A stretch of DNA of 57,281 bases, taken from positions 1-57,281 of the IMG/VR virus record IMGVR_UViG_3300012950_000004; one strand, written 5' to 3'. This document shows positions 20,640-51,024 of the stretch, piece by piece. Each line of letters opens with the position of its first letter. Positions within the stretch are counted from its first letter, which is position 1. Both the position numbers and the translations under genes were made by a program. Origin of the DNA: a virus. The notes under the pieces were generated by a model. That model saw only the letters and a program-made list of their open reading frames with translations, made no database searches and was not told the DNA's origin.

Positions 20640-21860
20640 ATGTCCACTTATTATATAAAAAGTTATAAAGAAAATAGCTCCAAACTTCTTTATAGTAAAA
20701 GGCTGCTTTATAAGGTTAAGATTAAGGAGCCTGAGTATGAAAACTTGTTTGATTTTACTTTCGCCGAAAAACAATTGTATGGGAGAGTAACACGCGTCTT
20801 TGAGCCCATGACTGTTGCTTCACGCCAAACCTTCAAGGGGATTGCTTCCGAAAGTGAAATAGCCTCTCCCCAAAGGGTGCTCCCATTCGTGGCAGATGCG
20901 TTTAACAAACTTAATCAGCAGTTTGCGAAAAAAGCCATGAAAAATGAAATTGATGTAAGTGATAAATACTTATCGACATTAACCGTTTATAAATCTTATG
21001 AAAGCCCTCAAAAGCTTTATAACGCCCACTTGCGCACGTACAAGGAGACGCTAGCAGATTCCTTTCGATCCCAAGGCGATCCCATTTCCAATTTTGATGA
21101 ATTTATAAGTCGCCTAATGCCGTCACTACGAAGAACAGCGTACAAGAATCCTTTTACAATGACCGCCTACGTGAAGAGTACCTTTTGTCCTATTAGTGTT
21201 TCTGGGTTGGCCATTGAGATTGCCAATCTCTCCTACATCAATGATGAGGAAAAAATTGCCCTCTTTAAGCGAAGCCCCAACTGGGAATTTTATTTAAATG
21301 CTTGCAGAACGTATGGGTTTATGGTAGACTCTAATGTGCCTTGGAGATTAATTGCCGATATTGGGAGTGCACAAATGGTAGAGTTTGCTAAAAAATACGA
21401 ACTATACAGCACAGATGAAATTCTTAACGGAGTATACAATAAGGTCGCCCCACGTTATTTTAAGCAAATGCAGATAGGATTATACGAGTTGTACAACATG
21501 TCTAAAAAAATGACCTATACTCAGAGCATCTGCGCCGATGGAACATTGCGAATTACCCAGACGGATCCGGTTGAGTATTCCCTCTCTTCCTTTAAGGAAG
21601 CCTATGGCGAACAATACTTTTTAAAGCTGTATTTTCAAATTCGCTTTCTGGAGGAAGAATCACCATTCACCCCCCAGGAACAATTGGCACTAATTGACGA
21701 TTGTTTGGAGCTTGGGTCCTTCAGCGCCGGCCACGCAATTAATATTTTTGAAAGAATTCTCAACAAAACGTTTGACTATAACGGTAGTTTAGATTATATT
21801 GTAAAGAAGCGTAAAGAACTGGAGTCGAATGACAGCGAAATACTTCCAAGCTCTGGATGA
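20640..21860 (+). CDS. Putative virion structural protein
   Basis: 406 residues, ATG at 20640 after AAGAGA. I recall similar proteins annotated as virion structural proteins in marine myoviruses but know no function. It is rich in Tyr, Phe and Lys, has no Cys cluster or nucleotide-binding motif, and seems mostly helical (for example SNFDEFISRLMPSLRRTAYK and NWEFYLNACRTYGFMVDSN). It is the last gene of the structural block and its final 32 bases overlap the DNA polymerase gene, so the two are co-transcribed and possibly coupled. Confidence 0.5.
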   Translation: MSTYYIKSYKENSSKLLYSKRLLYKVKIKEPEYENLFDFTFAEKQLYGRVTRVFEPMTVASRQTFKGIASESEIASPQRVLPFVADAFNKLNQQFAKKAMKNEIDVSDKYLSTLTVYKSYESPQKLYNAHLRTYKETLADSFRSQGDPISNFDEFISRLMPSLRRTAYKNPFTMTAYVKSTFCPISVSGLAIEIANLSYINDEEKIALFKRSPNWEFYLNACRTYGFMVDSNVPWRLIADIGSAQMVEFAKKYELYSTDEILNGVYNKVAPRYFKQMQIGLYELYNMSKKMTYTQSICADGTLRITQTDPVEYSLSSFKEAYGEQYFLKLYFQIRFLEEESPFTPQEQLALIDDCLELGSFSAGHAINIFERILNKTFDYNGSLDYIVKKRKELESNDSEILPSSG

Positions 21861-23028
21861 CAAAGAGCAGTGCGTAGGGATCTATAAAGACGGTACCCTC
21901 CACTTTGATAATTTTCCTGAAAATTGCCTAAGAACATGGCGATACTCCGGATCTTTAAAAGACGAAAACATTGAGTATGGGTGGCTATATGCCGCCGGCG
22001 ACTCTTTAGAAGAAGTATGCCCTTCCCACCTTAAAGAACAGCATGAGCGCCTTTCGCGCAAAATGAATGCGTTTCGCAAATCGTTTGATATTGCTAAGAT
22101 TAATTTTCGCGATCATTGTTTCTATGATTTGGTTCCCCATGACTTTCTTATAGAATTTTTAGAATTGAAAAATCAGATTACTGAGCACGTATTTGAAAGT
22201 TATGAAAAGCCAGCTAATTATGAATTTCTAGTCGGAGCGTCTAAGCTGCTGCATAAGATTCGATACCAAGAGTTGAATGTCAACAATGAAGGATGTAAGA
22301 GTCTGTTCTTGCAGCATCACAATCGCTCCCAGGCGCGCCAAATTCTTGAAGGGTCTCACTATATTGATTACAAGTTGTTTGGAACCGTAACGGGGCGCCT
22401 TGCGACTCACGGCGGATCCTTTCCCATATTAACTTTGAAAAAGGAATTTAGAAACTTGATAAAGCCCAAGAATGATTGGTTTTTATCTTTTGATTATAAC
22501 GGAGCAGAGGCGCGCACCGTGATAGCCTTATTAGACCATGAGCAGCCCGAAGGTGACATTCACGAATGGAACATGGAGAATGTTCTAAATGCCACGGGAA
22601 ACATAACCCGCGAAGAGGCGAAGACCCTCTTCTTTAGTTGGTTGTACAATCATGTTTCCAGCGCATTTGAATCTGAGGTTTATGATCGCGAAGCTTTGGT
22701 GGAACAATTTTATATCGATGGATACGTTCACACCCCACTCGGACGCAAGATTAAAATTGATGAACGTCGCGCCTTCAACTATCTCATTCAAAGTACCACG
22801 GCGGACTTGGTTTTAGAGCGCTCCATGGCGATAGATCGGTATTTGAGCGATAAAAAATCATACATCTCTCACCTTATCCACGACGAGGTAGTAATCGATC
22901 TTTGTGATGACGAAAGAGAAATCGTCCCTGAACTGAAAAAGATTTTCGCCCAAAATAGCCTCGATACGTACGAAGTTAATGTACAGGCCGGCGAAACGTG
23001 TTATGAGTTAGGAGTATTGCGCTTATGA
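21829..23028 (+). CDS. Short family A DNA polymerase (Pol I-like)
   Basis: 399 residues; ATG at 21829 with GGAG upstream, inside the end of the previous gene. It holds a polymerase core only. Upstream of motif A, FGTVTGRLA and FPILTLKKEFRNLIKP match the T-x-TGRL and R-F blocks of family A. Motif A is FDYNGAEARTVIALL with Asp at residue 222. Motif B is degenerate: TREEAKTLFFSWLYN, with Arg, Lys, Phe and Tyr kept. Motif C is LIHDEVVID with His-Asp-Glu at 351-353. There is no 3'-5' exonuclease domain, and the whole protein is about half the size of T7 polymerase. The window also encodes DnaE, so this enzyme may do lagging-strand repair or gap filling. Confidence 0.85.
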   Translation: MTAKYFQALDDKEQCVGIYKDGTLHFDNFPENCLRTWRYSGSLKDENIEYGWLYAAGDSLEEVCPSHLKEQHERLSRKMNAFRKSFDIAKINFRDHCFYDLVPHDFLIEFLELKNQITEHVFESYEKPANYEFLVGASKLLHKIRYQELNVNNEGCKSLFLQHHNRSQARQILEGSHYIDYKLFGTVTGRLATHGGSFPILTLKKEFRNLIKPKNDWFLSFDYNGAEARTVIALLDHEQPEGDIHEWNMENVLNATGNITREEAKTLFFSWLYNHVSSAFESEVYDREALVEQFYIDGYVHTPLGRKIKIDERRAFNYLIQSTTADLVLERSMAIDRYLSDKKSYISHLIHDEVVIDLCDDEREIVPELKKIFAQNSLDTYEVNVQAGETCYELGVLRL

Positions 23029-23882
23029 TCTCTCTGATCGGCATCGGCAATGGCGCTTCTGCCATCGTCAAAAAATTTGATGGGATTTCTCAATATCAGC
23101 TGCATATGCTTGGCAGCAATATAGAGAAAACAACCATGACAGAATACAAGCTTCGTCGCTTTGAGAATCCTGAAGAGTATGAGGAGAACGTTCCCAATCT
23201 CAAGAAATTTTTTAAAAAGACCGCCGATCGGGTGCAGGTATTTGTGCTTGGCTCATCCCTAAGTTCAAATTATTCTCTGGGAATCTTGGAGCAGTTGAAA
23301 GACAAGAAGGTAGATCTATTCTACATTAAGCCCGATATCGAGTTATTGACCGGGATCCCCAAATTGGTGGAAAATGTAGTGTTTGGCGTCTTGCAACAAT
23401 ACGCCCGATCGGGACTTCTAAACTCGTTTACTATTTTTTCTAACCATAATATTGAAAAAGCACTTGACACGCTGCCAATTAAAAGTTATTATGATGTTAT
23501 CAATGATACGATATTTTCTACAGTGCATTACTTAAACTATTTTGAATTCACGGAGCCCGAGATTGGTGTCCTTGCGCGCCCAACCGAAATCAATCGCATC
23601 CGCACCGTCGGGATGCTGAATATGAGAAATCTTCATGAAAAATGGCTTTTTGACCTTGACATGGAGCGCGATCTGTGTTATTGTTTATGTATAAACGAAA
23701 AGAGATTAGAGACAGAAGGTGGTTTGCATCGTAAGATAGTCGATATGCTAAAGAAGAAACCTAGCAATGCGTTTCGCAAGCTTTCGTATGCAATTTACGA
23801 GACACACCTACCAGACTTTGGGTTCTGCGTTGCCCACACTAACGCAATTCAACAACAAAAAACCCTTGACAAGATCGTTTAA
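23025..23882 (+). CDS. Divergent FtsZ/tubulin-like protein (candidate)
   Basis: 285 residues; its ATG overlaps the polymerase stop by 4 bases. No named family is certain. The order of elements fits FtsZ/TubZ: N-terminal strand and glycine loop ISLIGIGNGASAIVKKF; strand VQVFVLGSSLSSNYSLG where FtsZ has its GGGTGTG loop; strand VDLFYIKP; LNSFTIFSN where FtsZ has VIPND; a helix; RIRTVGML where FtsZ has the DVRTVM region; and a C-terminal domain LCYCLCINE, helix, FGFCVAHTN like the FtsZ activation domain. The glycine-rich signature loop is degenerate, so GTP binding is doubtful. The fold call is my inference. Confidence 0.5.
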   Translation: MISLIGIGNGASAIVKKFDGISQYQLHMLGSNIEKTTMTEYKLRRFENPEEYEENVPNLKKFFKKTADRVQVFVLGSSLSSNYSLGILEQLKDKKVDLFYIKPDIELLTGIPKLVENVVFGVLQQYARSGLLNSFTIFSNHNIEKALDTLPIKSYYDVINDTIFSTVHYLNYFEFTEPEIGVLARPTEINRIRTVGMLNMRNLHEKWLFDLDMERDLCYCLCINEKRLETEGGLHRKIVDMLKKKPSNAFRKLSYAIYETHLPDFGFCVAHTNAIQQQKTLDKIV

Positions 23883-23947: not shown

Positions 23948-24712
23948 ATGTCAATTAATATGGAACTAATGAGAAAGAAGCTTTCCCAACTACGGGGAGA
24001 GTATGATAAGGAGCAATCTGCTTGGTTTAAGCCCGACGAGGGCGATCAAGATATTCGGATTGTCCCATCAACAGATGGGGACCCACTAAAGGAGATGTAT
24101 TTCCACTATAATGTCGGAGATCATCGAGGTGGAATTGTCTGCCCCAAGCGCAATTTTGGCGAGAGTTGTCCGATTTGTGAGTTTGCCTCATCCTTGTGGA
24201 AGGAAGGTACGAGCAACAACGATGAAGAGAGCAAGAAGCTTGCAAAGTCTCTTTTCGTTCGGGCGCGCTATTTCTCGCCCGTAGTAGTACGCGGACGAGA
24301 AGCCGAAGGAGTCAAGATCTACGGCTACGGCAAGCGCGCCTATGAAAATCTTTTGGGTTACATTCTGGACCCCGACTATGGAGATATCACAGATGCACTA
24401 GAGGGTACTGATATCGCCCTAACCTATACAAAGCCCACCACCCCGGGGGCTTACCCGCAGACGAGTCTAAAGATGCGCCGCAATACGTCACCGCTTCTTG
24501 AGGACAAGGAAGCCATCCCAGCCCTCCTTGATGGTATTCCTGATTTTGATTCTCTTTTTGAGCGTCATACTCCGCAGCAAATTGATGCCATCTTGGATGA
24601 GCAACTTGCTGGAAATGGAAGCGCTGAATCACGCTCGAAGGAAACCGCTAAATACGGCAGCAGCAAAACTGATGTGGACCGAGCGTTTGACGAATTGTTG
24701 GCCAATAAATAG
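23948..24712 (+). CDS. 32: Single-stranded DNA-binding protein, T4 gp32-like
   Basis: 254 residues with AAAGGAG before the ATG. The N-terminal helix (MELMRKKLSQLRGEYDKEQS), WFKPDEGDQDIRIVPS and the zinc-type cluster with His near residue 52 and Cys in CPKRNFGESCPIC match gp32, where His64, Cys77, Cys87 and Cys90 bind zinc. The core has FVRARYFSPVVV and LDPDYGDITD, a gp32 hallmark. The C-terminal 40 residues carry a Ser-rich linker and an acidic end (VDRAFDELLANK) used in gp32 to contact other replication proteins. It has its own promoter and terminator, as expected for a protein needed in large amounts. Confidence 0.9.
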   Translation: MSINMELMRKKLSQLRGEYDKEQSAWFKPDEGDQDIRIVPSTDGDPLKEMYFHYNVGDHRGGIVCPKRNFGESCPICEFASSLWKEGTSNNDEESKKLAKSLFVRARYFSPVVVRGREAEGVKIYGYGKRAYENLLGYILDPDYGDITDALEGTDIALTYTKPTTPGAYPQTSLKMRRNTSPLLEDKEAIPALLDGIPDFDSLFERHTPQQIDAILDEQLAGNGSAESRSKETAKYGSSKTDVDRAFDELLANK

Positions 24713-25049: not shown

Positions 25050-25847
25050 ATGAAGACTCCCCTCCGCTATCCCGGCGGCAAGTCCCGAGCAGTTAAGCAT
25101 ATCTTGCCGTATATTCCCGAGGACGTTCCGCGTCTTTGTTCGCCATTCTTTGGCGGCGGGTCTGTGGAACTGGCGATAGCCCAGCGAGGCAGTGAGGTGT
25201 TCGGGTATGATAAGATGAAGCAGCTAGTCTGGTTTTGGCAAGCACTCTGCGCCGACAACAACCGTCTCGCAGACGAGGTAGAGAAACTGCAGGAGCAATA
25301 TCAAATCAGATCGGGGGAGATGGTAACAGGATGCGTGAAAGAGTCATTTCATCAATATCGAGACGATCTCAAAACCGATTCATTCATGTTTTCTTACGAA
25401 CGCGCTGCCAAATATTATGTAATTAATCGGGCTTCCTTCTCTGGCGCTACATTTAGCGGCGGCTGGTCTGAGCGAGCATCATACGCAAGATTCACAGAGT
25501 CTTCTGTGCAGAGATTGCGAGACTTCAAAGCTAAAAACTTTAGAGTTGATTACGCCGACTTCGAACATGCTATTTGGGCTCATCCGCAAGCTTTTTTATA
25601 TCTTGATCCTCCATACATGCTGGAAGGATCTCAAAATTCTCTTTATGGCGTGGATGGAAACCTACACGATTCGTTCGAACACGAAAGACTTCACCGCTTG
25701 TTGAAAAGAAGGACCGACTGGGTGATGTCGTACAACGACTGCAGCCAGATTAGAGATATGTATTGTGATAATAAAATCATTGAGGCTGAATGGTCCTACG
25801 GAATGAACAAAAGTAAAAAGTCTTCAGAAGTGATTATTCTGGGTTGA
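25050..25847 (+). CDS. D12-class adenine-N6 DNA methyltransferase (Dam type)
   Basis: 265 residues. Residues 5-13 LRYPGGKSR and 33-40 FFGGGSVE are the N-terminal and SAM-binding motifs of the D12 class. FGYDKMKQLVWFWQ is motif II-like. NRASFSGATFSGG is the conserved N-R-x-x-F-S/N-G block. DPPY at 186-189 is catalytic motif IV. The closest well-known members are Dam (GATC) and T4 Dam, but specificity cannot be read from the sequence. The gene precedes a helicase and nuclease pair; its stop lies in that pair's promoter. A degenerate paralogue lies at 52102-52875. Confidence 0.92.
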   Translation: MKTPLRYPGGKSRAVKHILPYIPEDVPRLCSPFFGGGSVELAIAQRGSEVFGYDKMKQLVWFWQALCADNNRLADEVEKLQEQYQIRSGEMVTGCVKESFHQYRDDLKTDSFMFSYERAAKYYVINRASFSGATFSGGWSERASYARFTESSVQRLRDFKAKNFRVDYADFEHAIWAHPQAFLYLDPPYMLEGSQNSLYGVDGNLHDSFEHERLHRLLKRRTDWVMSYNDCSQIRDMYCDNKIIEAEWSYGMNKSKKSSEVIILG

Positions 25848-25890: not shown

Positions 25891-27459
25891 ATGCCCACAA
25901 AAATTTATGATAACCAAAAAGTCGCAGCTAACGAGATATACGAACGCTTGACGGTCCACCAGGATCCTTGTGTTTTGCTAACAGCGCAGCCACAAGTTGG
26001 CAAAACCGGCGCCGTCATAGAGTTGTGCAACCTGCTGTATGACGGTGAGGAAAAATACGCAGTATTATATTTTAGTCCGTCCGATAAGCAGCTATATTTT
26101 CAAAGCAAGGAGAGATTTTTAGAATATCCTAAAGCTTATGATTTGTTGCTCGGCTCCAATATTTACCATGACGGACAAATTTATCCCGGAGAGAGAGGAA
26201 AACAATTCCAAGAATTAGTACAGTTTATTAGAATGATTTTTGTATTAGGGAAAAAGCTTCTGGTCATCCGCGACGAAGCTCATATCGGAATTGGTGGAAA
26301 TAAAAGAAAGGAATCGCTTCAAAAGATTCCTCAATTCCTAGAAGATATTTGCGAGAGTTTGCCCGGCACCCCCAATGTGCACGATCGGGTACAATATTTG
26401 CTGGTAACAGCAACTCCATTTACATATGATTTTCAAATCAATGGGGAAAAGGCTAAAATTACAGAAATTTATCTTCCCCATGGGCAACGTTATGCAGGCG
26501 CCCAACATCTATTAGATTCCGGACGCATCTTGCCTCACATTAGTCGCACCAAGCCTCCCAATGGGCTTACCTTGGTAGAAAAAAAGGAATATATTAAAAA
26601 CGATAACGATCAGTTTGTCGCACGACTATGGGCGCTAATCAAAGAGCAGTTCACTCCTGACCGTACGGGCTACTTTGTGGTTCGGTGCACAAATCGCAAG
26701 GACTTAAGACTTTTCGAGCGAGCATTCCTAAAAAGTAATATTGACTATGAGGTTTATGAGTCGGCTACGAGCAGTATTCCCGATTTTGAACGACAGCTGA
26801 ACGAAAAGCCGACCGGTCCAAAAATTCTCCTTATTAAACATTCCTACAAACAAGGTAAGACCTTGTGCCTTGATCATGTGGTGGGGTGGTATGAAAATGA
26901 TACCACCAATGGCCGCCATGACGCGGATATTGCTCAATCTGTAGGAAGATCGTTCGGATATGATAAAAAGGATTATGACTTTCCCATCTATTGTGATGTG
27001 CAATCGATAGTTAAGCTTATTGACTATTATGATTTATGCAAGATGAAAGATTTTGCTTCAAAGCGCGAATTGCCCATGTCATCCACACACACAACGTGGA
27101 AAGCTAAAATGGTTAAAGATAGGGATTATCAGGTATGTGTAAACAAAGAACAAGCAGAGCAGGTTTATAGAAATTGGCACCCCGAGTATCAAGGATCTTT
27201 CAACACCACGAAGGTGTCGACTAACAACGCCTATGATGTTATCGAAGCTGTAAAAAATAAAGCCACGCGCCAAAAGACGTCCAACCGAGTAAATCTCATA
27301 TATATCGACAAGCCTAACAAAGCTTACGTAGACTCGTTCATGGGCGTCCCACACTGGCATGGAAGGTGGATTGTCCTATATGAGACCGGCAACAGCACCC
27401 CACAGTACGAGGCTAAAGACAAGTCATATTTCTCTGCTCGCGGAACGGCAGCTAAATGA
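25891..27459 (+). CDS. SF2 DEAH-box helicase/translocase, restriction-type
   Basis: 522 residues. Gln9 may form a Q-motif. Walker A is AQPQVGKTG with Lys38 and Thr39. DEAH is at 128-131, motif III LVTATPF at 171-177, a second RecA-like domain follows, and motif VI is QSVGRSFGYD with Gln349 and Arg353. The GRSFGY ending of motif VI recalls Z1-domain ATPases found in restriction-type gene clusters, but this is a comparison from memory. The gene has its own promoter and overlaps the following nuclease gene by 4 bases, so the two products are likely made together and act together. It differs from T4 UvsW and Dda in layout. Confidence 0.82.
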   Translation: MPTKIYDNQKVAANEIYERLTVHQDPCVLLTAQPQVGKTGAVIELCNLLYDGEEKYAVLYFSPSDKQLYFQSKERFLEYPKAYDLLLGSNIYHDGQIYPGERGKQFQELVQFIRMIFVLGKKLLVIRDEAHIGIGGNKRKESLQKIPQFLEDICESLPGTPNVHDRVQYLLVTATPFTYDFQINGEKAKITEIYLPHGQRYAGAQHLLDSGRILPHISRTKPPNGLTLVEKKEYIKNDNDQFVARLWALIKEQFTPDRTGYFVVRCTNRKDLRLFERAFLKSNIDYEVYESATSSIPDFERQLNEKPTGPKILLIKHSYKQGKTLCLDHVVGWYENDTTNGRHDADIAQSVGRSFGYDKKDYDFPIYCDVQSIVKLIDYYDLCKMKDFASKRELPMSSTHTTWKAKMVKDRDYQVCVNKEQAEQVYRNWHPEYQGSFNTTKVSTNNAYDVIEAVKNKATRQKTSNRVNLIYIDKPNKAYVDSFMGVPHWHGRWIVLYETGNSTPQYEAKDKSYFSARGTAAK

Positions 27460-28213: not shown

Positions 28214-29341
28214 ATGGCTAGAAAAGCTAAGCCCCCCAAAGCTGGTAGGGTTTCGATGCAAGACTTAATGACTCTTGTTAATAAAAAAGCTGGCAGAAAT
28301 GTAGCGCACAATCTCACAGGCGAGAACCCAACCGAAGTAAAGGAATGGATCTCAACGGGATCCCGATGGCTTGACTCCATCATCTGCAAGGGAAAGGTGG
28401 CCGGCATTCCAGTCGGCAAGGTCACAGAACTAGCAGGGCTGGAGAGCACTGGTAAATCCTACATGGCAGCACAAGTAGCCGCAAACGCCCAGAAAACGGG
28501 CAAGATGGTCGTCTACTTCGATTCCGAGTCTGCCATCGACCCCGGCTTCTTGGAGCGAGCAGGATGCGACCTAGAGCGCTTAATGTACGTTCAGGCGTCC
28601 TCCGTGGAGTTTGTGCTGGAAACAGTGGAAGAATTGCTCGGAGCAACCGATGAACAGTTATTGTTTATCTGGGACTCTCTGGCGCTTACTCCATCTGTGT
28701 CGGATGTAGAGGGAGACTTCAATCCCCAATCCTCAATGGCAGTGAAGGCTCGTATTCTCGCCAAGGGAATGTCAAAGCTGATCATTCCCATTGCGGACAA
28801 GCAGGCCACATTTCTGGTTCTCAACCAGCTTAAAACCAATATTCCCAGCGGACCTAACGCTCGAATCATCGCGATGACCACCCCATACATGACCCCGGGC
28901 GGCAAAGCAATGCACTATTCGTATTCTCTCCGCATCTGGCTAACAGGGCGTAAAGCCAAGTCAGCCTTCATTGAGGATGAAAAGGGATTTCGAATCGGAT
29001 CCGAAGTTAAAGTTAAGCTAGAGAAGTCTCGATTTGGAACTCAAGGCAGAAACTGTGCTTTCCGTATCCTCTGGGGTACCGAAGACATTGGTATCCGCGA
29101 TGAGGAAAGCTGGTTTGACGCAGTGAAGAGTTCAGAGTGCCTAACTTCTGCCGGCGCATGGTACACGCTTAAGATGCCCGATGGGTACGAGAAGAAGTTC
29201 CAACCCTCAAAGTGGACCGAGATCATTCAAAACGACGAAGAATTTAAGAATAACATCATTAAGCTAATGGATGAAGAGGTTGTTCAGAAGTTTGATCGAC
29301 GAGAAGGATCCGCCGACCAATTCTATTCAGATCCTGAATAA
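28214..29341 (+). CDS. uvsX: UvsX/RecA-like recombinase
   Basis: 375 residues, AAAGGAGA before the ATG. Walker A GLESTGKS is at 75-82 and Walker B-like QLLFIWDSLA follows near 147. Other RecA-type blocks are VVYFDSESAIDPGFLERAG, TFLVLNQLKTN (motif with the Gln switch) and TPGGKAMHYSYSLRI. The C-terminal part (SAGAWYTLKMPDGYEKKFQP) matches UvsX-type ends. It promotes strand exchange in recombination-dependent replication, loaded on ssDNA coated by the gp32-like protein. Confidence 0.93.
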   Translation: MARKAKPPKAGRVSMQDLMTLVNKKAGRNVAHNLTGENPTEVKEWISTGSRWLDSIICKGKVAGIPVGKVTELAGLESTGKSYMAAQVAANAQKTGKMVVYFDSESAIDPGFLERAGCDLERLMYVQASSVEFVLETVEELLGATDEQLLFIWDSLALTPSVSDVEGDFNPQSSMAVKARILAKGMSKLIIPIADKQATFLVLNQLKTNIPSGPNARIIAMTTPYMTPGGKAMHYSYSLRIWLTGRKAKSAFIEDEKGFRIGSEVKVKLEKSRFGTQGRNCAFRILWGTEDIGIRDEESWFDAVKSSECLTSAGAWYTLKMPDGYEKKFQPSKWTEIIQNDEEFKNNIIKLMDEEVVQKFDRREGSADQFYSDPE

Positions 29342-29376: not shown

Positions 29377-29407
29377 TATGTATAAGCTTGTAGGAGGGCT
29401 TAGTATT

Positions 29408-30364
29408 ATGAAAAGAGTATTGATTATTGATGCCCTCAACATGTTTTTGAGAGCTTATATCGTGGATCCGAGTTTGTCGACCAACGGGGAGCCGATTGGC
29501 GGCTTCAAAGGATCTCTTAAGATTGTGCAAAAGCTGGCTAGGATGACAACGCCAGATGAGATAGTCATTGTCTGGGATGGTCCGAACGGATCTCAGAAAC
29601 GCCGCACAATGGATAAAAATTATAAAGAGGGCCGAAAACCGATCAGGCTGAATCGCAGCATCGAAGGAGTCAGCGAAGCGGATGAAATGCAGAATAGAAT
29701 CTGGCAGCAAACCCGAGCCATTGAGTATTTCAACGAGATGCCGATCATTCAAGTGATGCTCCCAGAGGTGGAAGCTGACGATGTGATTTCGTATCTAACG
29801 CGCATGCCGCACTATGATGGATGGCAAAAAGTTATCGTGTCAAATGACAAAGATTTCTATCAGCTGTGCGATGAAGAAACTGTGGTGTACCGCCCCACCA
29901 GTGATGTCGTTTATAACAAGAAGCGCATCGTTGAAGAGTTGGGAGTTCACCCCCGGAATATGGCACTTGCCCGAGCGCTCGTCGGAGATGCGTCAGACAA
30001 CCTCCCCGGTATTAAGTCGGTTGGGTTTAAAACCATTCAGCGCCGTTTAGGATTTTTAGCGTCAGAGAAGGATTACACCGCTGATGACATTGTGCAATAT
30101 TGCGAGAAAGTGGATAAAAAATTAAAATTCCACACAAATATTATTGAAGGTAGAGAAATTATTGGGCACAATTATAAAATGATGCAACTCTACTCGCCGC
30201 TACTTTCTCCTCAATCAAAAGACTTTGTTAGGAATGCGGTGGAGAACTTTGAGTGTAATTTCAATAAGATAGAAATTATGAAGAAAATGAGAGATGATGG
30301 TTTTGGGGAGCTTAATTGGAAAGACCTTGAACTGCGCCTTAATAAAATTAATTCTGAGTGCTAA
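29408..30364 (+). CDS. rnh: 5'-3' exonuclease / flap endonuclease (T4 RNase H-like)
   Basis: 318 residues; I use the ATG at 29408 with AGGAGG upstream rather than an in-frame start at 29378 that overlaps the promoter. The acidic motifs of the 5' nuclease family are in order: LIIDALNMFLRAY (Asp8), VIVWDGPNG, PEVEADDVISYL (Glu122, Asp124, Asp125), VSNDKDFYQLCD (Asp147, Asp149) and GDASDNLPGIKSVGFKT, a helix-hairpin-helix. It would remove RNA primers and flaps on the lagging strand. The short Pol I-like protein at 21829 lacks this domain, so the two may act together. Confidence 0.9.
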   Translation: MKRVLIIDALNMFLRAYIVDPSLSTNGEPIGGFKGSLKIVQKLARMTTPDEIVIVWDGPNGSQKRRTMDKNYKEGRKPIRLNRSIEGVSEADEMQNRIWQQTRAIEYFNEMPIIQVMLPEVEADDVISYLTRMPHYDGWQKVIVSNDKDFYQLCDEETVVYRPTSDVVYNKKRIVEELGVHPRNMALARALVGDASDNLPGIKSVGFKTIQRRLGFLASEKDYTADDIVQYCEKVDKKLKFHTNIIEGREIIGHNYKMMQLYSPLLSPQSKDFVRNAVENFECNFNKIEIMKKMRDDGFGELNWKDLELRLNKINSEC

Positions 30365-30422: not shown

Positions 30423-31793
30423 TTGAACGAAAAAGCAACTTTTAGTCGCTATGGAAAAGCCTTTCAAGAAGGACTGGTTCAGATTATCTATGAGGACCGT
30501 CCTTTTGCCGATCAGATTACCGAAGTGCTTAATGTCAACTTCTTAGAGTTGGAATACTTACGTGTCTTTGTGAGTAGAATAATTGAGTATCGCGACAGAT
30601 ACACCACTCACCCTTCTCCCGAGGCAGTCATGACCATCATCCGAACTGATTTGGGTGATGAAGACGCGGTTATTCAGCAGCAAGTGCGAGAATACTTTGC
30701 TAAAATTACAGCACGCGAGTCCACAGACGTTGCTTTCATCAAAGAGCAGTCCTTAGATTTTTGCAGAAAGCAAAATCTCAAAGAGGCAATGTTGAAATCT
30801 GTTGGCCTTTTGCAAACATGCTCTTTTGATGAAATTTCAAAGACAATCAACGATTCCCTAAAGTTGGGTTCAGATAATAATTTTGGTTACGATTATCTCG
30901 CCGACTTTGAGGCGCGTTTTGTCCCCAAGCATCGGCTCCCCGTCACCACCGGGTGGCAGGAGATCGATAAAATTTGCGGTGGAGGCTTAGGCAAGAGCGA
31001 ATTAGGCGTTGTTATTGCCCCCACCGGAGCAGGCAAATCTTTTTGTCTGGTGCACTTAGGAACTCAAGGAATTAAAGAAGGAAAGGTAGTAGTCCACTAT
31101 ACTCTAGAATTGCAAGACACAATTATTGCAAGTCGTTACGATAGTTGCTTAACAGGATACCCACTTTCTGATATTATTAACTTTAAGGATGAAGTATACG
31201 AAGAAATTAAAGACATCGAGGGAAAACTCATTGTCAAGGAATACCCTACCAAATCTGCAACAACCAACACCATCAAATCCCACCTTACGAAGTTGTTAAA
31301 GAGAGGCATCAAGCCAGGGATGATTATTGTCGATTACGCGGATCTCTTACGACCCGTAACGGTAAGAAAGGAAAAGAGAGCAGAATTGGAATCCATCTAC
31401 GAAGAATTAAGAGGAATATCGACAGAGTTTAAATGCCCTGTTTGGACAGCCTCGCAGACGAATCGCTCCGGCTTGAATGCGGAAGTGATTACCATGGAGC
31501 AAATTTCAGAAGCATTTAATAAGTGTTTCGTCGCCGATTTTATTTTTTCTGTGTCTCGTACAGTTGAAGACAAGCAGAACAATCAAGGAAAGATGTTCAT
31601 TGCTAAAAATAGGAATGGTCCGGACGGCATGATCTATGATATTTTCATGGATCCCGGCATTGCTAAGATACGCATTATGCCAAAACAAGCCGGTATCTCA
31701 ACCGTGTTGCCTGTAAATCCGGTAGCGCTCAGTGCCAGCATGCAGAAAGATCTTCTGCAAAATAAGTACGAAAAATTCAGAAAAAGGAAATAA
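30423..31793 (+). CDS. 41: DnaB-type replicative helicase, T4 gp41-like
   Basis: 456 residues from a TTG start; GGGGTGA lies 3-9 bases before it and no ATG is better placed. The N-terminal half is helical. The RecA-type core starts with PVTTGWQEIDKICGGGLGKSELG and has Walker A APTGAGKS at 199-206, Walker B MIIVDYADLL (Asp304), and WTASQTNRSG as motif 3. The end (KMFIAKNRNGPDG) is the DnaB motif 4 region. It unwinds the fork. The primase partner is not in this window. Confidence 0.9.
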   Translation: MNEKATFSRYGKAFQEGLVQIIYEDRPFADQITEVLNVNFLELEYLRVFVSRIIEYRDRYTTHPSPEAVMTIIRTDLGDEDAVIQQQVREYFAKITARESTDVAFIKEQSLDFCRKQNLKEAMLKSVGLLQTCSFDEISKTINDSLKLGSDNNFGYDYLADFEARFVPKHRLPVTTGWQEIDKICGGGLGKSELGVVIAPTGAGKSFCLVHLGTQGIKEGKVVVHYTLELQDTIIASRYDSCLTGYPLSDIINFKDEVYEEIKDIEGKLIVKEYPTKSATTNTIKSHLTKLLKRGIKPGMIIVDYADLLRPVTVRKEKRAELESIYEELRGISTEFKCPVWTASQTNRSGLNAEVITMEQISEAFNKCFVADFIFSVSRTVEDKQNNQGKMFIAKNRNGPDGMIYDIFMDPGIAKIRIMPKQAGISTVLPVNPVALSASMQKDLLQNKYEKFRKRK

Positions 31794-37539: not shown

Positions 37540-37841
37540 GAAAAGCATTTGGATGGATTGTGCATCGCGTGAAGCACAAACTTGCACACTTCCACCCTGC
37601 TCGGCTACTTGATACCCTTAAAGAACATGGCATGGCGCTAGTGATTATCATTGTAGGGTGGGAAATCATCGAAGACATTTTGTTTCCACTGCTGTTTATT
37701 TGGCTCGGTCACAACGTCAATCCATGGTTTATAACAGGCGCACCGGTAAGTTGGTTATTGTGTGCTCACCCTGTTGCTGTTCCCGTTCTGTGGGGACTTT
37801 GGATTAAAATTTCTGGGAGAGAAAATGAGAAAAGAATCTGA
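37536..37841 (+). CDS. Small membrane protein
   Basis: 101 residues. A basic amphipathic start (residues 1-30, with several Lys, Arg and His) is followed by two hydrophobic segments, about 33-57 (ALVIIIVGWEIIEDILFPLL) and 66-92 (ITGAPVSWLLCAHPVAVPVL), and a basic tail. It overlaps the previous gene by 4 bases and dnaE by 17. Size and topology would allow a holin, and the endolysin is 2.3 kb upstream, but there is no family evidence for that. Confidence 0.6.
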   Translation: MRKAFGWIVHRVKHKLAHFHPARLLDTLKEHGMALVIIIVGWEIIEDILFPLLFIWLGHNVNPWFITGAPVSWLLCAHPVAVPVLWGLWIKISGRENEKRI

Positions 37842-40800
37842 AATTAAGTTTGTTGGACTCCACGCGCATAATGTGGCTGGATCTATTTTTGACGCCCTTG
37901 GGTACCCACAAGCGCATATGGATTTTGCATATGAGAATGGGTGTGATGCTCTAGCACTAACAGACCACGGAAACATGAATGGGTTAGCCTATCAAGTCCT
38001 GCATGCAAAGAAGATGCAAGAAGCAGGAAAGGAGTTCAAGCCTATCTTTGGCTGCGAGGCTTACTTCACGCCCTCCATTGCCGAGTGGCACGAAGCCTAC
38101 AACAAAGCAATGGAAGACAAGAAGAAGGCACGCTCCATCAAGAAAGATGAACAATCTGGCGCCACCGTAGAAGATGAAGGAGATAGTAAAAAGACTCAGG
38201 GAATCTTAAAGCGCCGGCGCCATTTGGTTTTGTTGGCCCAAAATCAGAAGGGTCTTAACAACCTGTTCAAGTTGGTATCCGAATCCTACAAAGCAGAGAA
38301 TTTTTATCGCTATCCTCGCATTGATTACGCACTCCTAAAGAAGTACAACGAGGGCATTATAGCCTCGTCAGCATGCCTAGGAGGCGTTTATGCCGGGAAC
38401 TACTGGGAGAACCGGGACGACGGCGCCGAAGCCGTCCTAGAGGCAATGAGGGAGTCTACACGCCAAATGGTTAATATCTTTGGAGATCGCTGGTACGCCG
38501 AGATCCAATGGAACAATATCAAAGAACAACATGAATTAAACCAGTACGTGATTAAGATTGCTAAAGAGTTTGGTGTTGGGATTGTAACAACAGCCGATAG
38601 CCACTATCCCAATCCCGACGCTTGGAAGGATAGAGAGCTTTACAAGCGCCTTGGGTGGCTTGGCAAGGGGCGCCCCTCATGGGCAGAAGAAGAATCACAA
38701 CTCCCTGACGGCGTTGAGGAAATCGGCTACGAATTGTATCCCAAAAATGGGGATCAGATGTGGGAGAGTTATAAACAATACTCCGAGGAACAAGGCTTTG
38801 AATACGACGATGAAGTGGTTCTCCGGAGCATCGAAGAAACACACCGGATTGCATTCGATCGAATTGAATCGTTTTTGCCCGATAACACTGTGCGGTTGCC
38901 GGAATTCGTTGTACCGGCAGGATTCACGGCAACTCAAGCGCTTGTTAATTTTGCTTTAGAAGGGCTGAAAGAGCGCGGCTTTCACACGAACAAGGAATAC
39001 ACGGATCGTCTACGTCGAGAGTTGGGCGTGATTGATGAGCGAGGATTCTCAAAATACTTCCTAACTATGAAGTCGATTGTTGATGTGGCCACAGATATGA
39101 TGCTGGCTGGACCAGGCAGAGGATCCGCCGCCGGCTCTCTTGTGGCATATGCGCTGGGGATTACACAAGTGGATCCAATCAAGCATGGGCTTCTGTTCTC
39201 GCGCTTCCTGCGCTCAGACGCGACAGACTATCCAGATATCGATTATGATGTATCGGACAGCATGGCACTCAAGGAGAAGCTTGTTGATATGTGGGGCGCC
39301 GACTGCGTTGCCCCCATTTCCAACTGGAACACTCTGCAGCTCAAAAGTTTAATCAAGGATATCTCCAAGCTTTACAATATCCCATTCACGGAGGTCAACA
39401 CAGTAACCTCTATCATGATGAGGGAAGCACTACCAGAAGCCAAAAAGAAGCATGGCATTAAGTCGGGCATCTATGCCCCCACGTGGGAAGAGGTCATGGA
39501 GTTCTCGCCATCACTTCGCAAGTATTTGGCGATGCATCCGGCAGTCAAGACCCACGTTGAGGGCTTAGTCGGACAGGTGCGGTCTTGCTCTCGTCATGCC
39601 GGTGGGGTCGTTATCGCAGAGGATCTTGATAAGAATATGCCTCTAATCAACTCCGGAGGGGTGCGGCAGGCGCCATGGGCAGAGGGGCAGAACGTTCGAC
39701 ATCTTGAGCCGATGGGGTTCATTAAGTTCGATTTGCTAGGCTTGTCTACACTTAAAATGATGGAAGGTTGCATTGAGCATATCTTGCAGCGTCATCATGA
39801 CGTCGAGGCGCCTACGTTTACAGATGTATTAAACTACTACAATGAGCATTTGCATCCAGATGTAATTGATATGGACAATCAAGAAGTGTATGAAAACATA
39901 TTCCACGCAGGCAAGTGGGCTGGAGTCTTTCAATTCACAGAGTCGGGCGCCCAGAAGTTTTGTGTCCGCGCAAAACCCAGAAACATTATTGATGTGTCGG
40001 CTATCACATCCATCTATCGCCCGGGCCCATTGGCTGCTAATGTACACGATGAATATGTGGAAGCGAAGGAGAGCCCCCACTACATCAAGTATTTGAATGA
40101 AGACGCACACGATATCACACAAGAGACGTTTGGCTTTCTGATCTTTCAGGAGCAGATTGCGCTGCTGGCACACAAACTTGGAGGTCTGACATTGGACGAG
40201 GGCAACATGCTCCGCAAGGTGTTGACCAAGAAAGGTACCGGCAAGGGATCCGTCAAGGGCAAGCTGCACGATAAATTTATCTCTGGCTGCGCAGCAAACA
40301 AGATCGCAAGAGACGAAGCCCAAGCACTCTGGGATAAGTTCGAGTTTTTCTCGGGGTATGGCTTTAATAAGTCGCACGCCGTATCTTACAGCATCATTTC
40401 TTTCCAGTGCGCGTGGCTCTGGAATTACTATCCCGCAGAGTGGATGGCCGCTTTCTTGGACAAGGAGCCTGAGAGTCGCAAAGAAAAGGCGATTAATATT
40501 GCCAAGAAGTTTGGCTTCAAGATCGCGCCCTTGGACGTCAATAAGTCAGGCACAGTATGGGAGATTAGCGCCGACGGAAAGACCCTCATTCAGCCCCTCA
40601 CTTCAATTAAGGGATTGGGGATGGCTGCAATCGAGCAAGTGCTGGAAAATAGACCTTTCTTAAACGCCGAAGACCTATTGTTTCGCGAAGGAGTATCTTA
40701 TAGCAAGTTAAACAAAAAGGCACTTGACGCACTGTGTCGTGGAGGCGCCCTAGATCATATCGTCGACGATCGCTTTACAGGTCGAAAGCATTTTTGGTCT

Positions 40801-41253
40801 ACGTGCGTTGTGGAAAGACCTAAGAACCTTAAAAGGTTTAATGAAAACCTGGAGCTATATCGACCGGAAGGAGATTTTACGGAAGAAGAAATTATTCAGT
40901 TTAAGACAGACTTGACGGGCGTATTTCCTCTTAATCTCGTAGTGGACGCAGCGATGCTGCAAAGGCTTCACGAAAGGTACATACCCCCCATTTCAGAGTT
41001 TGATCAGGCGTTACAAATTTGCTGGTTTATTCCCCGCAAGATTGTGCCCAAGCAAACGAAGAATGGGAAACTTTATTGGATTGTAGAGGTTATTGATTCG
41101 AACAACGAACTAACTAGAATTAGATGCTGGGGTGTAAAACCCGAGAAGGATCGTATCCATCTCAACCGACCGTACATGGCATCCTTGAAATATGATCCGA
41201 ACTGGGGATTCAGTACGTATGCCATTGGAAAGACATTTAAACAACTAGGATAA
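37825..41253 (+). CDS. dnaE: DNA polymerase III alpha subunit (DnaE, family C)
   Basis: 1142 residues; I start at the ATG at 37825 (MRKESEIKFVG) after GGGAGAG, not at an in-frame upstream start inside the previous gene. The PHP domain has LHAHN (His13, His15), LTDHGNM (His48), GCEAY (Glu78), RRHLVLLAQN and TADSHYPN, so most metal ligands are kept. The palm has AGPGRGSAAGSL, YPDIDYDVSD with two catalytic Asp, and KFDLLGLSTL with the third. Fingers and later blocks (YRPGPL, FSGYGFNKSHAVSYSI) are typical. The C-terminus includes an OB-type strand region (LYWIVEVIDSNNE). It is a full bacterial-type replicase. Confidence 0.95.
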   Translation: MRKESEIKFVGLHAHNVAGSIFDALGYPQAHMDFAYENGCDALALTDHGNMNGLAYQVLHAKKMQEAGKEFKPIFGCEAYFTPSIAEWHEAYNKAMEDKKKARSIKKDEQSGATVEDEGDSKKTQGILKRRRHLVLLAQNQKGLNNLFKLVSESYKAENFYRYPRIDYALLKKYNEGIIASSACLGGVYAGNYWENRDDGAEAVLEAMRESTRQMVNIFGDRWYAEIQWNNIKEQHELNQYVIKIAKEFGVGIVTTADSHYPNPDAWKDRELYKRLGWLGKGRPSWAEEESQLPDGVEEIGYELYPKNGDQMWESYKQYSEEQGFEYDDEVVLRSIEETHRIAFDRIESFLPDNTVRLPEFVVPAGFTATQALVNFALEGLKERGFHTNKEYTDRLRRELGVIDERGFSKYFLTMKSIVDVATDMMLAGPGRGSAAGSLVAYALGITQVDPIKHGLLFSRFLRSDATDYPDIDYDVSDSMALKEKLVDMWGADCVAPISNWNTLQLKSLIKDISKLYNIPFTEVNTVTSIMMREALPEAKKKHGIKSGIYAPTWEEVMEFSPSLRKYLAMHPAVKTHVEGLVGQVRSCSRHAGGVVIAEDLDKNMPLINSGGVRQAPWAEGQNVRHLEPMGFIKFDLLGLSTLKMMEGCIEHILQRHHDVEAPTFTDVLNYYNEHLHPDVIDMDNQEVYENIFHAGKWAGVFQFTESGAQKFCVRAKPRNIIDVSAITSIYRPGPLAANVHDEYVEAKESPHYIKYLNEDAHDITQETFGFLIFQEQIALLAHKLGGLTLDEGNMLRKVLTKKGTGKGSVKGKLHDKFISGCAANKIARDEAQALWDKFEFFSGYGFNKSHAVSYSIISFQCAWLWNYYPAEWMAAFLDKEPESRKEKAINIAKKFGFKIAPLDVNKSGTVWEISADGKTLIQPLTSIKGLGMAAIEQVLENRPFLNAEDLLFREGVSYSKLNKKALDALCRGGALDHIVDDRFTGRKHFWSTCVVERPKNLKRFNENLELYRPEGDFTEEEIIQFKTDLTGVFPLNLVVDAAMLQRLHERYIPPISEFDQALQICWFIPRKIVPKQTKNGKLYWIVEVIDSNNELTRIRCWGVKPEKDRIHLNRPYMASLKYDPNWGFSTYAIGKTFKQLG

Positions 41254-44354: not shown

Positions 44355-45389
44355 ATGACCCACCCCACTTTGTCTTATGATGATGTGCTCCTTGTCCCTC
44401 AATATTCTGATATTAAAAGCCGCACTGAAATCGATATTGCGACCGATCTAGGAAAAAATTTAAAGCTCTCTGTTCCCGTCATTGCCTCTCCGATGGACAC
44501 CATTTCGGAAACAGCCATGGGTGTTGCGATGAGCCAGTATGGGGGAGTGGCGGTTATTCATCGTTATAATACTATCGCACATCAAGCGCGCCATGTCTCG
44601 ATGACTAAGGATTTTCAAGATGTGCCACAGCTTCAAGTGGGAGCAGCGATTGGTATTTCGGGAGATTATCAAGAGCGCGCCCAAGTTTTATTGTCGGTGG
44701 GTGTGGATTTCTTGTGTTTGGATGTAGCCCACGGACACCACATTATGATGAAGGAAGCGTTAGAACATTTACGCTCGGAATATGGCGCCGATCTTCACCT
44801 AATGGCCGGCAATGTCGCCACGCTGGAAGGCATTAACGACCTATCAGATTGGGGGGCGGATTCGGTGCGCTGCAATATTGGTGGCGGATCTATTTGTTCA
44901 ACCCGAATTCAAACAGGACACGGAGTGCCGGGCTTACAAACAATTATGGAGTGCGCCAAGACCGATCGTAATGTAAAAATCATCGCAGATGGAGGTATTC
45001 GTAACTCCGGCGACATAGTAAAGGCGCTAGCCGCAGGCGCAGACGCAGTCATGTGCGGCTCTCTTTTAGCCGGCACCAAAGAATCCCCGGGCAAGATTAT
45101 TCAAGATAAAGACGGACACCGGTGGAAACTCTATCGCGGAATGGCCAGCAAAGAAGCTCAAATTGAATGGCGCGGTAAATATTCTTCCTTTGAGGGGGTA
45201 TCCAGCACTGTACCCTATCGTGGTCCTATTAACAGTGTACTTGAAGATCTGGAGAAGGGAATCCGTTCTGGGTTCTCTTACTCTGGAGCCCGCAGCTTAC
45301 GAGAGTTGCATGCAAAAGCCCACTTTTTGATGCAAACCAACGCTGGTTTTTCTGAGAGTCGCACTCATATTTTAAATCGAGAGTGGTAA
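44355..45389 (+). CDS. IMP dehydrogenase / GMP reductase family enzyme without CBS domains
   Basis: 344 residues, one base after the thioredoxin stop. A TIM barrel with [47 protein letters not shown], the catalytic loop [17 protein letters not shown] with Cys181, [20 protein letters not shown] and the end [30 protein letters not shown]. The late blocks favour IMPDH over GMP reductase, but the flap lacks a clear Arg-Tyr pair and is short. No regulatory CBS domains are present between strands 2 and 3. It acts on guanine nucleotide supply. Confidence 0.82.
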
Positions 45390-49443: not shown

Positions 49444-51024
49444 ATGAGCCGAGAATATTCGGATAGCAGTGCACTGCAACAAAAGATAATGAAAGGCGCC
49501 AACATTTTAGCGGACAATGTGGCATCAACCCTAGGTCCACGCGGTCGCAATGTTTTATTGCACGAAAAGCATCGCACCCCTTTTATCACCAAAGATGGAG
49601 TAACGGTGGCGGCATTTGTCAGCTTATCAGACCCCTTCGAAAATGCTGCAGCCCAGATTATCAAACAGGCGGCAGTGGAGACTAACAATGAAGCTGGAGA
49701 TGGGACAACCACGGCGACGGTTTTAGCGCGTGCCATCTTGGAAGAATCTCAAAAGTTTTTGGCATCCGGGGCTTCCCCCGTCGAACTTCAACGTGGCATT
49801 CATTTGGCGACAAAGGAAGTGTTAAACGCCCTGAGCGCTATGGCAACCCCCGTAGCGAGCCTGGACGATATTCGACATATTGCTACTATTTCGGCCAATA
49901 ATGATAAAGTGATTGGGAATCTCATAGCGACCGCCATTGATCGCATTGGACAAGATGGAAGCATCACTATCGAGGAATCTCGATCGCTAGATACTTCAAT
50001 TGATTTAGCCGAAGGCTTTAAACTTCCTGCCGGCTTTTGCGCTGGAGCATTTATCACCGATGACCGACGCGCCATTATGCACCATGAAGATCCGCTCTTT
50101 CTTGTGACCGATGCAAAGATTTCCACCGTTGAAGAAATTTTACCACTCTTGGAGACGATTGCTCGCGAGAATCGCCCTCTTGTGGTTGTTGCCGAAGAAG
50201 TCGAAGGTCAAGCGTTGGCAGCTTTAATTATGAACGCCACACGTGGCTCGCTTAAGGTGGCAGCTATAAATGCCCCTGCGTACGGAGAAGAGCGACGATC
50301 GATCCTAGAAGATTTGGCAATCTCGGTTGGCGCAACCTTTGTTTCTCGCGAAAAAGGCGTAGCACTCAGAGAGGTGCAGATGAAGGATCTAGGGACCGCT
50401 AAATTTATTGACAGCACCAAACATCAGAGCACCATTGTAGGCGGATTGTGCGATCCGGCGCAAGTTGAACAGAGAATCGCCCAACTTAAATCTCTCATCG
50501 AAACCACCGAAAATCTTGCCGAATGTGAACTATATCAAAATCGCATTACGCGCTTGGCATCAGGGGTTGCGGTGATTCGTGTGGGTGGCGCCACGGAAGT
50601 AGAGATGACCGAGAAGAAACATCGCATCGAAGATGCTTTGGAAGCTGTGCGCTCCGCACAAGAAGAAGGCATCATACCGGGAGGAGGCGTGGCACTTCTA
50701 AGAGCATCACGCAGCATGTGTGTTATAACTCACGGAGACGCCGATCAGGGTCTAGGGGCAGCGGTCGTGCAAGCTGCATGCCAAGCGCCATTGCGCCAGA
50801 TGGCCTACAATGCCGGGCTTTCGTCTGATATCGTTGTGCAGAAAGTTTCGGAAGCCCCCGAGCATTGTGGGTGGGACTTTAGATCTGACAGCTTAGTAAA
50901 CTTAATGGAAGAGGGAATCATCGATCCAGTAAAGGTAACTAAAACTGCCCTCATTAACGCGGCAAGCTGCGCAGGGACGCTTATCACCACTAATTATGGC
51001 ATTATTCAAACGGAGGTAGACTAA
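49444..51024 (+). CDS. groL: GroEL-like chaperonin
   Basis: 526 residues against 548 in E. coli. Nucleotide-binding blocks are all present: VASTLGPRGRNVLL, ITKDGVTVA with Asp51, GDGTTTATVLARAI with Asp86 and Thr88-90, IEDALEAVR with the catalytic Asp equal to Asp398, and IIPGGGVALLRA. The apical domain is similar in size to the host type (FCAGAFITDDRRAIMHHEDP). The Gly-Gly-Met tail of bacterial GroEL is missing; the protein ends in IIQTEVD. Its own strong promoter suggests expression apart from the late genes. A GroES-like gene lies at 33995. Confidence 0.95.
   Translation: MSREYSDSSALQQKIMKGANILADNVASTLGPRGRNVLLHEKHRTPFITKDGVTVAAFVSLSDPFENAAAQIIKQAAVETNNEAGDGTTTATVLARAILEESQKFLASGASPVELQRGIHLATKEVLNALSAMATPVASLDDIRHIATISANNDKVIGNLIATAIDRIGQDGSITIEESRSLDTSIDLAEGFKLPAGFCAGAFITDDRRAIMHHEDPLFLVTDAKISTVEEILPLLETIARENRPLVVVAEEVEGQALAALIMNATRGSLKVAAINAPAYGEERRSILEDLAISVGATFVSREKGVALREVQMKDLGTAKFIDSTKHQSTIVGGLCDPAQVEQRIAQLKSLIETTENLAECELYQNRITRLASGVAVIRVGGATEVEMTEKKHRIEDALEAVRSAQEEGIIPGGGVALLRASRSMCVITHGDADQGLGAAVVQAACQAPLRQMAYNAGLSSDIVVQKVSEAPEHCGWDFRSDSLVNLMEEGIIDPVKVTKTALINAASCAGTLITTNYGIIQTEVD

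Follow-up and report, generated by a model that had tools for sequence, protein, structure and literature searches.

The 57,281-base virus record IMGVR_UViG_3300012950_000004 of IMG/VR, hereafter the window (positions 1 to 57,281), carries a gene whose 285-amino-acid product is predicted to have the tubulin/FtsZ fold but lacks the GGGTG[ST]G loop. This gene, here labelled tubL and its protein family TubL (23025..23882, ATG start; all features of the replication locus given below are on the + strand), is single-copy in the window. Its start overlaps the stop of a DNA polymerase gene in the four nucleotides ATGA (23025..23028), an overlap of the translational-coupling kind. The polymerase gene, polA (21829..23028), encodes a compact family-A enzyme of 399 amino acids (PF00476, E 6.9e-13; phrog_17, E 1.2e-20) in which no exonuclease domain was matched; its motifs A (D222), B (R261/K265/Y273) and C (H351-D352-E353), assigned by eye, are near-invariant among 77 unique sequences. 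It is preceded by p406 (20640..21860), a conserved protein gene without a Pfam or PHROG match, which overlaps polA by 32 nucleotides and lies upstream of it family-wide wherever the contig extends that far. The next gene 3' of tubL encodes a gp32-like single-strand DNA-binding protein (SSB; ssb, 23948..24712; PF08804, E 3.6e-15), and farther downstream lie a UvsX/RecA-like recombinase (28214..29341) and a 5'-3' exonuclease (29378..30364), both assigned with Pfam/PHROGs, and a DnaB-like replicative helicase (30423..31793; library match).

All five motifs quoted in a first-pass annotation of this DNA are present in the TubL open reading frame (ORF): GIGNGAS (residues 6-12), LGSSLSSNYSLG (75-86), IFSN (137-140), RIRTVGML (191-198) and FGFCVAHTN (265-273). 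Pfam and PHROGs scans of the window TubL gave nothing meaningful (best Pfam match Lipoprotein_7 at 0.19, best PHROGs match 0.14), while scans of IMG/VR recovered 97 relatives with the single window sequence, 544 with an alignment of the window clade (A1) and at least 568 with an alignment led by distant members (A6). The relatives from the first scans are ~60-80% identical to the window TubL; scans with SSB and polA alignments, followed by hmmsearch, added distant members at 24-35% (L346-L349, L360) and 46-51% identity (L356). A total of 171 unique TubL proteins, including that of the window, make up the family alignment, 121 of the window loop type and 50 divergent. The gene is real and under strong purifying selection, with a median ratio of non-synonymous to synonymous substitution rates (dN/dS) of 0.07 (range 0.02-0.13; 47 close, non-independent pairs). 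The family is common in uncultured viruses of bacteria and belongs to a widespread uncultured T4-like lineage. Among 50,697 phage records, tblastn found no relative of the window TubL at E ≤ 1, and none of the divergent member L402 at E ≤ 10 besides one Microviridae match at E 5; GTDB genome contigs scanned with A1 or with A7, the 47-row alignment used to model L402, likewise gave no TubL relative.

The position of tubL in the replication locus is strongly conserved. The first synteny count was based on 119 loci (84 unique proteins) extracted from the matches listed, 80 per IMG/VR scan. Among loci reaching 1200 bp or more upstream, all 105 had polA immediately 5' of tubL; among those reaching as far downstream, all 94 had ssb within 1.5 kb 3'. 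The exact four-nucleotide ATGA overlap with the upstream polymerase gene, which had been noted for the window, recurred in 111 of the 112 relatives having at least 600 bp upstream; none was found in L072. Gene order in the relatives is as in the window (p1133-p406-polA-tubL-ssb-...-uvsX-exo-dnaB). A wider set, mixing window-type with divergent members, added six earlier loci to 83 genes of the A6 scan; 67 of these had at least 1300 bp upstream. Here polA was directly 5' of tubL in 54 of the 67, L346 and L347 being missed through the start chosen and no polA being found upstream in L416, and SSB was encoded within 2.5 kb downstream in 68 of the 73 loci with enough sequence.

Of 79 polA-scan loci with a polA match, 26 carried TubL and 53 did not, and the TubL family profile gave no match of note on loci without it. 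Twenty-two of these 53 were listed (L326 onwards): 19 had other genes after polA, the first ORF being of 146-151 amino acids in three and 554-748 in 16, and three had none. Two named phages were examined for a hidden tubulin between polA and ssb: in Microcystis phage Mel-JY01 the protein encoded just before ssb (428 amino acids; L130:8406-9692) matches an S-adenosylmethionine (S-AdoMet) lyase (E 4.4e-10), and in Flavobacterium phage immuto the slot contains a pair of short ORFs (151 and 171 amino acids). Since related phages without TubL have other genes in the polA-ssb slot, TubL looks lineage-specific within a conserved replication module.

The AlphaFold2 model of the window TubL, built from 40 sequences, has a mean predicted local distance difference test score (pLDDT) of 84.8 and a predicted template modelling score (pTM) of 0.85; four of the five models scored 82.7-84.8, and pLDDT fell below 50 only at residues 110-112 and in the tail. 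The 50 Foldseek matches listed from the Protein Data Bank (PDB) were all FtsZ or TubZ (best E 5.3e-11). VIA-align comparison with 738 chains, in which rows within one Z unit are ties, gave CetZ (3zid; Z 20.9, root-mean-square deviation (rmsd) 3.8, 263 aligned), TubZ (2xka; Z 20.4, rmsd 3.5, 277 aligned), FtsZ (2r6r; Z 19.5, rmsd 4.0, 272 aligned) and tubulins (~19.3). In a viral structure library there were seven matches at E ≤ 0.001, the named ones being FtsZ/cell-division, PhuZ or tubulin-like proteins. The model of L402 is better still (pLDDT 93.6, pTM 0.91), with FtsZ as the best Foldseek match (E 6.1e-12) and, among 719 chains in VIA, CetZ at Z 24.7 (rmsd 3.0, 259 aligned), TubZ at 23.5, FtsZ at 22.0 and tubulin at 21.8. 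Both models match tubulin-family chains over essentially the whole protein (residues 1-285 and 1-279), including the C-terminal domain and the core helix H7, which DSSP places at residues 155-175 of the window model (23487..23549) with N160 kept in 168 of 171 proteins. As modelled, TubL thus has the tubulin/FtsZ fold along its whole chain, with a Rossmann-like GTPase domain, H7 and a C-terminal domain; this is the fold that the first-pass annotation had called, and no other emerged from the comparisons. One detail of that annotation did not survive: RIRTVGML, which it had fitted into the FtsZ element order, is modelled as a beta strand and is not the counterpart of the 'DVRTVM' helix H8 of FtsZ, and by our reading of the DSSP output neither H8 nor H9 of FtsZ is seen in either TubL model.

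Sequence searches of the PDB with A1 and A7 produced chance matches only, so the fold call rests on the models and on profile comparison. In hhalign, A7 aligned with nine FtsZ sequences at probability 41.7 and E 2.7e-4 over 253 columns in collinear order, which pair T1, T4, T6 and H7 with the same elements of FtsZ. None of 100 block-shuffled FtsZ alignments did as well (best 1.2e-3; longest 93 columns), and the other controls were far weaker (reversed FtsZ, E 0.34; SSB, 0.47; polA, 0.13). Profile homology of TubL to FtsZ therefore appears weak but above the null with the deep alignment, and not with the window clade alone. The Pfam tubulin/FtsZ profile PF00091 had no match on the window record at E ≤ 10, where a control matched 13 of 14. 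In a single-sequence scan of 47 members PF00091 touched six (best 0.019), short of the Pfam cut-off standard, whereas TrkA_N touched 16 (best 6e-5), as might be expected if TubL were a Rossmann-type enzyme binding nicotinamide adenine dinucleotide (phosphate), its likeness to tubulin being superficial. The weak TrkA_N match in the one member shown, however, covers residues 3-31, a generic GxGxxG start, and both models match tubulin-family chains at full length with Z of 19-25; we regard such an enzyme as extremely improbable. The TubL family was not found described in open-licence PubMed Central texts, and within that scope both the family and its setting are new, though the fold is known.

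According to excerpts of PMC8936486, loops T1-T4 of FtsZ contact the phosphates of guanosine triphosphate (GTP), T5 the ribose, T6 helps bind guanine, and T7 supplies a pair of catalytic aspartates acting on the adjoining subunit; the signature GTP-binding loop of the superfamily is given as GGGTG(S/T)G in excerpts of PMC2875224. In TubL, T1 (residues 6-12, GIGNGAS; 23040..23060) is well kept, with G6 in 170 and G8 in all 171 proteins. At the T4 position (residues 76-86; 23250..23282) GSSLSSNYSLG of the window stands where FtsZ has GMGGGTGTGAA, and the signature (pattern GG[GA][TS]G) occurs in none of the 171 unique proteins, which bears out the suggestion of a new branch without this loop. 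No counterpart of the FtsZ T3 motif GxGAGxxP was seen in the TubL alignments, and NxDxxD, the pattern of the T7 catalytic aspartates, is not present in the family alignment. Position 177, at the place of T7, is E or D in 120 of 121 window-type but only 25 of 50 divergent members, so a T7 catalytic acid is not family-wide. On the base side, the T6 asparagine N140 (23442..23444), guanine-side by alignment to FtsZ, is found in 167 of 171 proteins; both N140 and N160 are lost in the L346/L348 branch (E and A there) and in L432. The GTP site, judged from these alignments, is thus remodelled on its phosphate side and mostly kept on its base side. The eroded site of the first-pass annotation stands as regards the signature loop, though remodelling, with asparagines retained and loop loss stepwise, describes it better than simple erosion.

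The two branches differ in how much of the phosphate side they keep. In the divergent branch T1 has the form GLGxAGC (A10 and G11 in 46 of 50 each), resembling GVGGAGGN and GVGGGGCN of the FtsZ alignment, and T4 tends to G-[SA]-G-x-[IV]-S-G (G78 37/50, S81 33/50, G82 37/50), so that here T1 remains FtsZ-like and half of the loop survives (G-x-G-x-x-S-G). Window-type proteins have G-[SAT]-[SAT]-x-S-S-N-Y at T4 (S80 121/121, S81 119/121), or in short form G-S-S-x-S-S-N-Y for the window clade. This pattern suggests that the loop was lost in steps within the family, from a more FtsZ-like state; likeness to FtsZ, rather than a rooted tree, is what makes the divergent state appear the older. GTP use is likely, though not proven, to have been lost.

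The best-conserved stretch of the family lies elsewhere. Helix H5 (residues 119-132, VFGVLQQYARSGLL; 23379..23420), with the motif GVLQ[EQ]YARSG, has a mean weighted Jensen-Shannon conservation of 0.72, against 0.52 for the family, 0.64 for T1, 0.55 for T4 and 0.41 for T7. Three of its residues, Q124, Y126 and R128, are invariant in 171 of 171 proteins, as is Q276 near the C-terminus. Because H5 is outside the nucleotide loops and yet better kept than them, it points to a fixed partner, for which it is the proposed docking surface. Mirror-tree correlation as evidence for the identity of this partner was dropped: the polymerase was not singled out, and uvsX was no weaker than polA.

Taken with the synteny, these features lead us to propose that TubL belongs to the core of the replication operon, serves as a scaffold or adaptor and probably does not hydrolyse GTP. 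The fold and the coupling were computed; for the proposal as a whole, job included, we put the chances at about even. TubL would be produced in step with the compact polymerase and have a structural role where the phage replicates, as scaffold or adaptor, its conserved H5 surface binding either the polymerase or SSB. A nucleotide may still be bound by its base, but FtsZ-type hydrolysis would have been given up. A replication scaffold was among the roles suggested in the first-pass annotation, and it fits the synteny. The other, an inhibitor of host FtsZ, would make TubL a decoy or cap; the shared fold speaks for this and nothing else does. It is ill-suited to a gene that sits in the replication core, overlaps polA and is under strong purifying selection, and T3, T4 and T7, which in FtsZ face the neighbouring subunit, are where TubL departs most from FtsZ. 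We therefore consider a decoy very unlikely.

Several observations weigh against a non-hydrolysing replication scaffold or against the steps leading to it. One of the five AlphaFold2 models of the window TubL was poor (63.2), and the hhalign comparison of A1 with the nine FtsZ sequences was at noise level (probability 1.6, E 0.031), though the 34 columns that it aligned fall in the T6-H7 register. In the wider synteny set at least one gene separates polA from tubL in 10 of 67 loci. Exploratory partial correlations of distance matrices with TubL over 78 loci were 0.59 for SSB, 0.43 for uvsX and 0.38 for polA. Window-clade proteins retain the T7 acid (120/121) along with the T6 and H7 asparagines, and nucleotide use is thus possible. 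An altered loop is moreover no proof of GTPase loss: PhuZ of phage phiKZ has a non-consensus T4, SMGGASGSTIG when placed by eye, and excerpts of PMC3678025 describe the PhuZ GTPase site as competent, with an aspartate in T7. The same sequence qualifies the statement of the first-pass annotation that known phage tubulins keep the loop, which is partly true. The working T4 of PhuZ, the full-length tubulin fold and the retained T1, T6 and H7 positions would all suit an ordinary GTP-driven cytomotive filament of the PhuZ/TubZ kind, positioning phage DNA with a phosphate loop that is merely unusual. Such a filament is harder to reconcile with alignments in which no T3 counterpart is seen and the T7 acid is not family-wide, and with the L346/L348 branch, which has lost both base-side asparagines yet retains the gene and its position; we think it unlikely.

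A second, canonical FtsZ-type gene is found in some of these phages. A PF00091 search of seven larger family contigs gave one match above cut-off, on the 87.7-kb contig of L067, and a search of 34 further contigs gave two clear matches, on L185 and L371; weak matches on L375 and L389 coincide with TubL itself by our reading of the coordinates. The gene on the contig of L067 (L451:1318-2445; PF00091, E 1e-7) encodes a canonical FtsZ/tubulin-type GTPase of 375 amino acids and has 33 relatives in IMG/VR (L458-L490). All 21 unique proteins longer than 300 residues have both GGGTGS and the T7 motif FDxxDL, an apparently intact site, and in hhalign the family matches bacterial FtsZ at probability 98.3 (E 1.3e-14). 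No such gene was found by tblastn in named phage records at E ≤ 0.01. The TubL profile aligned with this family at probability 62 and E 7.5e-5 over 160 columns (in the reverse direction 30, 5.5e-4 and 30 columns), an E value reached by none of 100 shuffles (best 0.003). As a separate observation, the FtsZ-type gene is preceded by a fragment that we read as resembling a gp46-type ATPase.

Five window-clade contigs carry the FtsZ-type gene and tubL on the same strand (those of L067, L185 and L371, of L461 with 203 kb and of L473 with 136 kb), the former starting 38.7-44.6 kb upstream of the latter by arithmetic from the coordinates. All three window-type contigs that were searched with PF00091 and reach 44 kb upstream have it. 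The window itself, silent for PF00091, is uninformative here because it ends 23 kb upstream of tubL. In the divergent branch, which has kept more of the loop, all four contigs that extend more than 44 kb upstream (163-204 kb in length) lack the gene. The pairing suggests an active and a silent tubulin sharing labour in the same phages: where a canonical FtsZ-type GTPase is present, that protein would be the motor and TubL its non-hydrolysing partner. TubL might then be the hydrolysis-dead half of a two-tubulin system, co-assembling with the phage FtsZ-type protein much as alpha- with beta-tubulin and linking replicating DNA to the filaments. The intact site of the second protein and the distribution just described favour this. 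The co-occurrence count is partly biased, however, two of the five contigs having come from a search with the FtsZ-type gene itself; 20 of 24 contigs with that gene lack TubL, many of these being short contigs, although one has 235,681 bp; L036, which reaches 40.8 kb upstream, has no PF00091 match; and the two genes are not neighbours. We hold such co-assembly to be unlikely. A fuller version is speculative: the FtsZ-type GTPase would form dynamic filaments, and TubL, its hydrolysis given up and its translation tied to that of the DNA polymerase, would tether the replisome to them through polymerase or SSB. The phage would in this way construct and position a replication site of its own, and the TubL phosphate loop would have decayed in the clade that possesses the partner.

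The capsid, sheath and replication genes place the window phage on the T4-like fringe. Its capsid protein is closest to those of an uncultured 484-kb phage, Microcystis phage Mel-JY01, Rhodothermus phage RM378 and Flavobacterium phage immuto; an A1 scan of the three named phages and of two uncultured ones whose capsid genes are related, run without a positive control, gave no match. RM378 is the isolate discussed with the 'Far-T4' group in excerpts of PMC4360716, a paper with no occurrence of FtsZ or tubulin. Besides its family-A enzyme, the window encodes an unrelated DnaE-like DNA polymerase of bacterial type (37762-41253; phrog_405, E 1e-231). Between ssb and uvsX, a D12 adenine methyltransferase gene (25050-25847) adjoins a superfamily 2 (SF2) helicase-like gene (25891-27459; cpSF2-GREB1 and ResIII matches); since the genes of this interval differ among relatives, the pair looks like exchangeable cargo. 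The window further encodes a GroEL (49444-51024; phrog_5725, E 3.1e-136), a dehydrogenase-type protein (44355-45389; phrog_9582, E 1.5e-96) that by our reading of the sequence resembles inosine monophosphate dehydrogenase/guanosine monophosphate reductase, and a 252-amino-acid protein (53851-54609) common to cyanophages S-SSM7 and P-TIM68 and to Acinetobacter phages.

Among known systems, archaeal CetZ (3zid, 4b45) is the top structural match of both TubL models over the whole chain, tying with TubZ for the window model. CetZ was solved with guanosine thiotriphosphate (GTPgS) or guanosine diphosphate (GDP), as the titles of 4b45 and 4b46 state, whereas TubL is a shorter protein without the GGGTG[ST]G loop, encoded by phages within a replication operon. 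TubZ of Bacillus plasmids (2xka, 4ei7; Z 20.4 and 23.5 to the two models), solved with GDP or GTPgS according to the structure titles, is like TubL a tubulin fold serving a mobile replicon. TubZ is not known to be coupled to a polymerase. PhuZ, the phage TubZ of phiKZ-like phages, shares with TubL a phage-encoded tubulin fold and, in phiKZ, a non-consensus loop, and PhuZ of phage Noxifer is among the TubL matches in the viral structure library (E 5.1e-6). Unlike tubL, the phiKZ PhuZ gene is not beside a polymerase gene, and no sequence-profile link to TubL was found (hhalign probability 0.8), in a weak test where bacterial FtsZ itself reached only 5.8 against PhuZ, although PhuZ is an accepted member of the superfamily.

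Bacterial FtsZ has the T3 and T4 signatures, the NxDxxD of T7 and a C-terminal tail, all of which TubL lacks, and the phage FtsZ-type protein differs from the TubL with which it shares five contigs in its intact GGGTGS and FDxxDL. Archaeal FtsZ paralogues without functional motifs, noted in excerpts of PMC2875224, are like TubL divergent branches of the superfamily; FtsZl1 and FtsZl2 of the same paper, whose text has no occurrence of the word 'phage', are divergent too but cellular, and according to it they keep the GTP loop that the viral TubL is without. TubL brings a cytoskeletal fold into a replication operon, a combination of which no report was found in open-licence PubMed Central texts. 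Its members, apparently graded in how far the loop is lost, form a natural series in which to study the role of a tubulin fold deprived of GTP. PhuZ and TubZ, the tubulins so far described from phages and plasmids, are GTP-driven filaments, whereas the TubL family is part of the replication core.

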